A stretch of DNA of 64,000 nucleotides. Origin: Geoglobus ahangari (GTDB lineage Archaea; Halobacteriota; Archaeoglobi; Archaeoglobales; Archaeoglobaceae). Numbering within the stretch: position 1 is the stretch's first letter; every line of letters begins with the position of its first letter. This document shows, piece by piece, positions 45,634-47,638 of this stretch. Location: the NCBI RefSeq assembly GCF_001006045.1, contig NZ_CP011267.1, forward strand, positions 1,426,001 to 1,490,000. The letters run 5' to 3'. The notes beneath the pieces are model-generated. The model did not search any database and had not been told where the DNA came from. It was given only the letters and a program-made list of their open reading frames with translations. The translations under genes and the position numbers were made by a program.

Positions 45634-46116
45634 ATGAGGAAGGGTGAGCGGGTTTTCATCGCCGATACCGCTGTGATCAAGGGCGATGTGGAGATCGGCG
45701 ATGACTCGAGCGTGTGGTTCAATGCGGTGATAAGGGGAGACCTCGACAAGGTTGTTATCGGCAGGAGAACCAACGTGCAGGACAACGCTGTGATACACGT
45801 GGACGAGGGCTTTCCGACGGTGGTGGGCGACAACGTGACCATAGGGCATTCCGCAGTCGTTCACGGTTGCAGGATCTCGGACAATGTCCTCGTTGGGATG
45901 AATGCGGTCGTGCTTAACGGGGCTGAGATTGGCGAGTACTCGATTGTTGGTGCCGGAGCCGTTGTGACGGGAAAGAAGTTCCCCGAGAGGTCGCTAATTC
46001 TCGGAGTGCCTGCAAAGGTTGTTAGAGAGATCACGGATCAGGAGATGGAGCTCATAGAGAGGAGCTGGAAGGAGTACCTTAAGCTCAAGGACAGGTACCT
46101 CTCGAATACGCTTTAG
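45634..46116 (+). CDS. Gamma-class carbonic anhydrase-like protein
   Basis: 160 residues of left-handed beta-helix with hexapeptide repeats and a C-terminal helix. The three zinc-ligand His of the gamma class are seen: one in DNAVIHVD near 52-59, two in TIGHSAVVHG near 71-80. The Arg/Asp pair in VIRGDLDKVVIG is also conserved. It may hydrate CO2 or be a related CamH/PaaY-type protein. No acidic proton-shuttle loop of the Cam type is present. Single gene with its own promoter region. Confidence 0.87.
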   Translation: MRKGERVFIADTAVIKGDVEIGDDSSVWFNAVIRGDLDKVVIGRRTNVQDNAVIHVDEGFPTVVGDNVTIGHSAVVHGCRISDNVLVGMNAVVLNGAEIGEYSIVGAGAVVTGKKFPERSLILGVPAKVVREITDQEMELIERSWKEYLKLKDRYLSNTL

Positions 46117-46154
46117 CTGCGAACACTTTTCTCATTATCATTTCTTTAGAAACA

Positions 46155-46162
46155 TTTTTATA
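46155..46162 (+). promoter_or_regulatory. TATA box ahead of the structured RNA candidate
   Basis: TTTTTATA at 46155-46162 predicts transcription from about 46180-46185, at the left arm of a 9-bp inverted repeat. No coding frame of note lies between it and 46272. Confidence 0.5.
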
Positions 46163-46178
46163 GGAGGACATCGATAGT

Positions 46179-46271
46179 ACAGTGTCCGACAACTGGGGGA
46201 CAAAATACCACCCATGGCATCCATCGGGTGGCGGCGGGGTGACGGTGGGGGGACACTGTCCTCCCCTTTTT
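46179..46271 (+). ncRNA. Candidate structured RNA or leader with terminator before cdrS-ftsZ
   Basis: ACAGTGTCC (46179-46187) is the exact reverse complement of GGACACTGT (46251-46259). Inside, CCACCC-ATGG (46208-46217) pairs with CCAT-(C)-GGGTGG (46221-46231), forming a 10-bp hairpin with a 3-nt loop and one bulge. GGTGG at 46244-46248 could pair with CCACC instead, giving an alternative fold. TTTTT at 46267-46271 follows the outer stem like a terminator. I do not recognise an RNA family. A second TATA lies after it, so this may be an independent small RNA or an attenuator. Confidence 0.5.
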
Positions 46272-46273
46272 CG

Positions 46274-46281
46274 TTTAAAAA
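46274..46281 (+). promoter_or_regulatory. Second TATA-like element, directly before cdrS
   Basis: tttaaaaa lies about 21-28 nt before ATG 46302, giving a possible leaderless cdrS-ftsZ message that would leave out the structured element. GGAG at about 46281-46284 overlaps it and could serve as a ribosome site for a longer transcript. Confidence 0.4.
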
Positions 46282-46295
46282 GGAGCTGAAACACA

Positions 46296-46490
46296 ATGAG
46301 AATGAGAAAGATCTCCATAAGGATCACGGATCAGCAGTACGAGTTTATCGAGTCCCTCGTTGCTATGGGGGACTATGCGAATGCAAGCGAGGTCATCAGG
46401 GAGGCTCTCAGGATCTTCATCAACCAGAAGAAGAAGGAGCTGAAGGAGCTTATGGGTGATGAAATAAAGTGGATGGGGGAGAATGTATGA
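46296..46490 (+). CDS. Ribbon-helix-helix regulator, CdrS-like
   Basis: 64 residues (ATG 46296 or 46302). Ribbon-helix-helix fold: [19 protein letters not shown], then [14 protein letters not shown], plus a helical basic tail. In haloarchaea the RHH protein CdrS is encoded next to ftsZ2 and controls cell-division genes; the same arrangement is here, with 4-nt overlap into ftsZ. The function is by analogy. ATG 46302 would fit the leaderless start from tttaaaaa at 46274-46281. Confidence 0.85.
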
Positions 46491-47638
46491 AGTCGTTTAT
46501 TAGGGAGGCGCAGGAGTATTATAGGAAGGAGCTGCAGAGCAGAATGGACAACTTCTCGTTTGAGGAGTTTGGAACACCGAACATAATTGTTGTGGGCTGC
46601 GGTGGGAGTGGTAACAACACCGTGAACAGGCTGAAGAATCTGGGTGTTGATGGTGTAACGACCATAGCCATAAACACCGACAGGCAGCACCTCGAGATGA
46701 TAAAGGCCGACAAGAAGGTTCTGATCGGCAGGAGCATAACCAAGGGGCTTGGAGCCGGTGGTTATCCGGAGATCGGGAGGAAGGCGGCTGAGCTTGCAAG
46801 GGGGACTCTCGAGGAGCTCCTTGCCGGTGCGAACCTCGTCTTCGTCTGCGCAGGGCTTGGAGGTGGAACCGGTACGGGCTCAGCGCCCGTAGTTGCTGAG
46901 ATCGCGAAGAAGCAGGGTGCGATCGTCATAGGGATGGTTCAGACACCGTTCAAGGTCGAGAGGGCGAGGATCGGTAAGGCGATGGAGGGGCTTGAGGAGC
47001 TGAAGAAGCATGCCGACACCGTCATCGTGCTGGACAACAACAAGCTCCTCGAGTACGTGCCAAACCTGCCCATAGAGCAGGCGTTCAGCGTGATGGATCA
47101 GATTGTGGCCGAGACTATCAAGGGCATAGTGGACACGATAACCAAGCCGTCGCTCATGAACATCGACTTTGCAGACGTCAGGGCGATAATGGAGCACGGT
47201 GGCGTGGCTGTGATGCTCGTCGGAGAGGCGAAGTCCCAGAACAAGGCGAGTGAGGTCGTGAGGGACTGCCTGTCCCACCCGCTGCTCGAGGTGGACTACA
47301 GGGGAGCGACCGGAGCGCTCATCCACATAACCGGTGGGCCCGATCTGACAATAAAGGAGGCCGAGGAGATAGTGAACAACCTCACGTTTGAGATCTCAGA
47401 CAACGCGATGGTTATCTGGGGAGCGAGGATATCCAAGGAGTTTGAGGGAATAGTGAGGGTGACGGCGATAATGACCGGTGTGAGCCCCGAGAGGATCTTC
47501 AATGTCGAGGAGGAGTACGCCCACTACGGCTACGGAGGGAACGGAAAAAAAGCTGAGGTTCAGGCATACAGCTCTAACGGAAGACAGCCCGTCCCCTCAA
47601 TGGTGGCGAAGAACTACAACGGCATCGACGTGCTTTAA
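46487..47638 (+). CDS. ftsZ: Cell division GTPase FtsZ
   Basis: 383 residues from ATG 46487, which overlaps the RHH stop as ATGA. Tubulin signature GGGTGTGS near 125-132, N-terminal [15 protein letters not shown] near 35-49 and NTDRQHL near 63-69; the T7 catalytic loop lies at [12 protein letters not shown]. An N-terminal 30-residue extension and a Gly/Ser/Asn-rich tail (GYGGNGKK) flank the core. It polymerises into the division ring. Linkage to the CdrS-like gene suggests the FtsZ2 type. The window holds only this one ftsZ. Confidence 0.95.

Follow-up and report, generated by a model that had tools for sequence, protein, structure and literature searches.

ParD-type antitoxins repress their own operons, and the parC repeats of plasmid R1 are 11 bp long. 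According to the accessible part of one source, ParR binds repeats of about one turn, and one clostridial parC-type site consists of two 8-bp repeats placed 3 bp apart (PMC9426499). CdrS of Haloferax volcanii was found at 18 ChIP-seq sites, including ftsZ1 (HVO_0717) and hisB (HVO_2986), and the 10th base of the ftsZ1 CdrS motif lies 50 nt before the start point (PMC8406309). The accessible text of the same study describes Haloferax CdrS as binding mostly upstream of promoters, with a possible activating role, and expects occupied sites at or downstream of the promoter to block polymerase; the cdrS promoter itself is absent from the CdrS ChIP table given there (PMC8406309). In Halobacterium, CdrL, a ribbon-helix-helix (RHH) protein, binds 5' of cdrS-ftsZ2, and the portion of that report available describes it as absent outside haloarchaea (PMC7439475).

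Here, the DNA in front of an archaeal cdrS-ftsZ gene pair was analyzed in a window of 64,000 nucleotides from Geoglobus ahangari (contig NZ_CP011267.1, positions 1,426,001 to 1,490,000), the numbering of which is used throughout; the genome is a single contig of 1,770,093 bases. The region 46155-46302 is best explained as the promoter-operator of the cdrS-ftsZ operon, and its leader, as judged from sequence, probably carries a phased array of operators bound by CdrS, through which the operon most likely regulates itself.

The cdrS-ftsZ locus and its putative promoter

The leader is flanked by a gamma-carbonic-anhydrase-like gene (45634-46116) and an RHH gene on the forward strand (46296-46490, or from the ATG at 46302), which encodes a protein of 64 amino acids scoring above the Pfam cut-offs for RHH_1 and ParD_antitoxin. 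The match of this protein to the NCBIfam CdrS equivalog model (E 3.6e-10, 39.7 bits) is below the cut-off of 100, and the protein is assigned as CdrS by gene order. It is followed on the same strand by ftsZ (46487-47638), which is FtsZ2-type by position, scores 428 bits with TIGR00065, carries the Pfam domains Tubulin and FtsZ_C, and has a start overlapping the cdrS stop. The window therefore contains a short RHH gene directly 5' of ftsZ, the arrangement by which a CdrS-FtsZ2 locus is recognized. With the RHH protein as query, cdrS was detected in 49 of the 55 family genomes. The passing of the ParD antitoxin cut-offs by the product of 46296-46490 also points to a risk that such genes are misannotated as antitoxins. 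The whole leader element has a single copy in the genome, which argues against a repeated or mobile sequence.

The putative cdrS-ftsZ promoter, comprising a TATA box and an upstream element (AACATTTTTATA), is located on the forward strand at 46151-46162, and its TATA and flanking GG are invariant in six sequences of the genus. The TATA itself (TTTTTATA) is at 46155-46162, where the original prediction had placed it, and AT-rich TATA-like boxes are seen by eye at the equivalent position in most other leaders of the family. Archaeal transcription is expected to start about 25-27 bases downstream of the TATA box; by this spacing, the cdrS-ftsZ start point is presumably at 46183-46189. A second promoter serving a leaderless ATG at 46302 had also been proposed. 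Its TATA (TTTAAAAA, 46274-46281) is present in the window but absent by eye from five relatives in the genus; the ATG is likewise present, but the arrangement is not conserved, and the relatives share a Shine-Dalgarno-like run of purines. This purine-rich stretch, GGAG at 46282-46285 on the forward strand of the window, lies about 9-10 nt 5' of the start across the genus (by eye).

Phased GTCnGACA sites in the leader

The conserved elements are DNA sites, short palindromes with the consensus tGTCnGACa, located 3' of the TATA box and spaced by whole helical turns of 10-11 bp. A scan with a position weight matrix (PWM; cut-off 4) placed five candidate CdrS sites and two weak in-phase sites on the forward strand. 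Site 1 (GGAGGACA, 46163-46170) scores 6.3 and is represented by GGTGGACA or GGAGGACA in 6/6 genus sequences. Site 2 (GTCCGACA, 46184-46191) is the strongest with a score of 12.5, reads TGTC.GACAA in all six genus sequences, and overlaps the presumed transcription start. Site 3 (GGGGGACA, 46195-46202; score 7.3) begins 11 bp after site 2, site 4 (GGCATCCA, 46216-46223; 5.1) 21 bp after site 3, and site 5 (GGGGGACA, 46248-46255; 7.3) 32 bp after site 4. The weak sites are GGGTGACG (46237-46244; 2.7, below the cut-off), 21 bp after site 4, and GTCCTCCC (46258-46265; 2.5), which is also the 3' arm of a hairpin at 46247-46265. The window sites are more degenerate than those elsewhere, with only the one at 46184 scoring above 8, and GTCsGACA is the commonest unit across the family leaders. 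The helical phasing of these repeated sites was overlooked in the original prediction, and the 9-bp outer inverted repeat described in it is explained by a pair of the palindromic GTCnGACA-type words. When the window's own genome was searched with TTGTCSGACAA as a regulon probe, allowing one mismatch, 14 places per strand were found vs. 52 for a reversed-pattern control, and a two-unit probe, also with one mismatch, found six places vs. four in its control, with only the cdrS place recognizable.

Phasing was followed in 48 family leaders, which are the 49 genomes with cdrS minus G004, whose match is at a contig edge; second matches were also left out, and the upstream region of G054 is truncated where its contig ends. 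The self-similarity of these leaders (95 bases 5' of the gene) peaks at lags 10-11, 21-22, 31-33, and 43-44, with troughs half a turn off the peaks, and nearly all 48 oriented upstream regions have an AT-rich TATA-like box followed by repeated GTCsGACA-like words. For one representative per genus, at most 43 of 1000 shuffles reach the observed phasing value in 10 of 13 genera, although such counts overstate independence since the genomes are related. The exceptions are g7, g12, and g9, where 255, 945, and 125 of 1000 shuffles, respectively, reach the observed value; in g12, whose longer leader puts the array outside the fixed 95-bp stretch, the score is negative. Among the upstream control stretches, three of 13 are reached by fewer than 60 of 1000 shuffles (G000, 59; G017, 24; G040, 4), and the value of G040, a g12 genome, is attributed to the same longer leader, which brings the array near the control stretch. 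For the window genus, the stretch was moved 25 bp upstream, a shift chosen so that it covers the array, and 6, 6, 10, 10, 0, and 2 of 1000 shuffles reach the phasing in its six genomes.

The weight matrix was seeded from visual inspection and built from 60 genomes, genus-weighted into 21 groups: the 48 of the family and 12 others, the latter being 20 fetched genomes minus eight haloarchaea. It converged on G-T-C-n-G-A-C-A and found 79.0 genus-weighted sites vs. 13.6 +/- 2.5 in shuffles, with two to six sites in every one of the 60 genomes; as expected of a palindromic word, the weighted counts are alike on the two strands (79.0 and 76.3). Weighted site pairs 6-50 bases apart fall mostly (79.8 of about 87.5, 91%) at lags 10, 11, 21, 22, 31, 32, 33, 43, and 44. 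In the 20 further genomes of the phylum, clear arrays were found in both genomes of the sister order and in the Methanomicrobia-like ones, and the leader of G222 has eight consecutive 11-bp units by eye. A strict two-unit probe matched 21 of 288 genomes, at least nine of them at cdrS, and its reversed control matched two. Repeats one helical turn apart at the operon's own promoter, as in ParR/parC-like arrays, are thus a feature of this leader. The cdrS leader L076 (G161) was also observed to contain a perfect 38-bp palindrome around GTCTGACA.

RNA structure in the leader

The leader could instead be mainly an RNA element, in which a 5' UTR hairpin controls translation, stability, or early termination as an attenuator, a switch, or a protein-binding RNA, but this is quite unlikely on the combined evidence from the window and the family. 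The RNA fold of 46161-46275 has a z of -1.82, with 7 of 200 shuffles folding as well, and the opposite strand has a z of -1.26. The structures behind the original prediction are all present on the forward strand: the outer repeat, with ACAGTGTCC at 46179-46187 and its exact reverse complement GGACACTGT at 46251-46259; the inner 10-bp hairpin at 46208-46231, with one bulged base; and GGTGG at 46244-46248. Across six genus sequences, the outer repeat (46179-46259) is no conserved element, having 57% of its cells paired vs. 56% when the partner is slid by one column, and only the window genome has all nine of its base pairs. The inner hairpin has 80% of cells paired and no two-sided change. A putative hairpin overlooked in the prediction, GGGGGGAC-ACT-GTCCTCCC at 46247-46265 on the forward strand, is better kept than both, with 95.8% of cells paired, again with no two-sided change. 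The alignment of relatives proposed as a check on covariation gave no tested helix in the window genus with two-sided changes above controls, which, along with the unconserved outer helix, leaves the RNA switch or attenuator unsupported in this genus. A separate small RNA found no support either, as an Rfam search with the region and ten related loci returned nothing above chance or the gathering cut-off.

In many genera, hairpins are found just 5' of the start region, with stem sequences that differ. Compensatory changes occur in two genera other than that of the window: the g13 hairpin has two-sided changes at 7/15 pairs, above both controls, in an alignment of 8/10 sequences (G048 and G050 left out), and a 6-bp stem in four g12 sequences has them at 4/6 pairs around an invariant CCUGA...GGAUGAGGG loop. 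These covarying helices differ from those of the window, in whose genus no two-sided changes above controls were found. The g3 alignment comprises 5/6 sequences, with G014 left out. Furthermore, the folds of the leaders are more stable than those of shuffled sequences (mean z -2.41), which is not so for the upstream controls (-0.22), and in the inverted repeats, G-T mismatches outnumber A-C ones by 13 vs. 4. Yet the folding is nearly strand-symmetric (mean z -2.41 sense and -2.22 antisense, with sense folding better in 27/48 leaders), as for DNA palindromes, and the leaders of G022, G018, and G019 have sites but no stable fold. RNA structure in the family may be an additional layer that the operator model leaves unexplained.

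The g13 hairpin (L042-L049) is up to 15 bp long, lies about 37-80 bases before the start, and has GACAAAA in its loop. The covarying g12 stem is located at L030:1437-1455, L034:1415-1433, L039:643-662, and L040:1190-1209, with a loop that reads CCTGA...GGATGAGGG as DNA. By eye, this loop could form a kink-turn, which could presumably be an L7Ae site.

The candidate binder, the operator model, and known systems

The haloarchaeal comparison strongly suggests CdrS as the binder of the phased array. The matrix applied to ftsZ1 promoters was learned without any haloarchaeon. Of the first six haloarchaeal ftsZ1 promoters, five carried two units 11 bp apart. Among the best 80 of 299 loci, a pair of units was present in 73, in each case with a spacing of exactly 11 bp and with the first unit 62-67 bp before the start, and the controls gave 1/80 at 450-600 bp upstream and 1/80 on shuffled promoters. 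The exact pattern GTCNGACRNNNGTCNGACR has three distinct places in H. denitrificans, four in H. gibbonsii, and two in H. marinum, and its reverse has none. The places in these three Haloferax genomes include ftsZ1 (3/3), hisB (2/3; IGPD by Pfam), a divergent gene pair (3/3; in one case identified by Pfam as DUF7093 and DUF6432), and a gene for a DUF7562 protein (1/3). The same word is thus found at published CdrS ChIP targets (PMC8406309), as judged in Haloferax species other than H. volcanii, and this, together with the phased GTCnGACA sites across the phylum, supports the earlier suggestion of an operator for the RHH protein. In the 220 bp before ftsZ1 of seven non-haloarchaeal genomes (starts by the first-ATG rule), the matrix found nothing scoring 6 or more, so the ftsZ1 target looks haloarchaeal.

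Two Haloferax cdrS leaders have no GTCnGAC and carry instead GTAAGAC and GTCTTAC 11 bp apart, which fits the absence of CdrS from that promoter in the accessible ChIP data (PMC8406309). Among the 20 non-family genomes, eight haloarchaeal cdrS leaders carry GTAAGAC/GTCTTAC, and this pair is likely the CdrL target. In the leaders compared (G186, G213, G163, G297, G139, G151, G235, and G070, with G139 lacking an exact pair), GTCTTAC is 11 bp on from GTAAGAC in five of the eight, as also in L256 and L257, and 12 bp on in two of the eight. Two-unit GTCnGAC sites were additionally observed 50-65 bp before other haloarchaeal genes, L230 (DUF7139 by Pfam), L214, L098, L210 (a bactofilin), L236 (HerA-like), and L246 (DUF7093/DUF6432), which are candidate members of a CdrS regulon including a second cytoskeletal gene.

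Another RHH protein or a different regulator might bind the phased sites in the window lineage, given that the window genome encodes nine RHH_1 matches and that the cdrS-ftsZ2 promoter of Halobacterium is bound by a different RHH protein, CdrL (PMC7439475). This is improbable, because CdrL is reported only in haloarchaea in the accessible text (PMC7439475), where cdrS leaders use GTAAGAC/GTCTTAC, and the GTCnGAC word tracks the published CdrS targets in Haloferax. With GTCnGAC at those targets and CdrL confined to haloarchaea, CdrS is the simplest binder of the array in CdrL-free lineages.

In the proposed operator model, CdrS dimers, the products of the operon's first gene, would bind the sites side by side on one DNA face, along an array that runs from the interval separating the TATA box from the predicted start point into the transcribed leader. 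The filled array would block RNA polymerase, and the block would keep the amounts of CdrS and FtsZ constant. Cooperative filling of one face is suggested by the phasing and by ParR, and autorepression by the array position. For CdrS, a division regulator conserved in archaea, the model specifies both a DNA word and a geometry beyond the haloarchaea, and it predicts self-control of the division operon. A more speculative and rather doubtful extension is a two-layer switch, in which a CdrS filament would wrap DNA as ParR wraps parC and a fast-evolving RNA hairpin, kink-turn-like in g12, would tune translation; in haloarchaea, the circuit would have been rewired, the sites for CdrS having moved to ftsZ1 while CdrL took over the cdrS promoter through an altered word. 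The predicted rewiring would account for the absence of the cdrS promoter from the CdrS ChIP targets in that group. Transcription might also be ended before cdrS by a condition-dependent terminator, formed by the hairpin at 46247-46265 and the TTTTT at 46267-46271, but this is very improbable, as the five terminator-like matches in the window (vs. 0.2 in shuffles) are five versions of a single stem and the T run, present as predicted, is by eye not kept in the five genus relatives, leaving T5 only in the window sequence of the six. In the open-licence literature, neither an array before the archaeal division operon across lineages with haloarchaeal rewiring nor a paper on cdrS autoregulation or Archaeoglobus start sites was found.

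The proposed CdrS operator array shares features with several described systems. As in the CdrS regulon of H. volcanii, the RHH protein is encoded with ftsZ2, and the targets ftsZ1 and hisB carry the window's two-unit word in other Haloferax species; in contrast, the two units of H. volcanii lie upstream of the target promoters, whereas the window has 5-7 sites downstream of the cdrS TATA, and the array stands at cdrS itself, a promoter off the H. volcanii target list in the accessible text (PMC8406309). CdrL of Halobacterium salinarum is likewise an RHH protein binding 5' of cdrS-ftsZ2 but is reported, in the available portion, only in haloarchaea (PMC7439475), whose leader word is GTAAGAC/GTCTTAC in place of the window's GTCnGAC. 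ParD-type antitoxins resemble CdrS, which exceeds their model cut-offs, but the second gene in the window is ftsZ and not a toxin. ParR/parC similarly combines an RHH protein with turn-spaced direct repeats, which lie at the promoter from which the protein is expressed together with a cytoskeletal gene; it differs in that ParR has the further role of linking DNA to ParM in segregation, whereas nothing in the window indicates a centromere, and the partner in the window is the tubulin-like FtsZ. The arrangement is of a known kind, in which an RHH protein occupies turn-spaced repeats in the promoter of its own gene.
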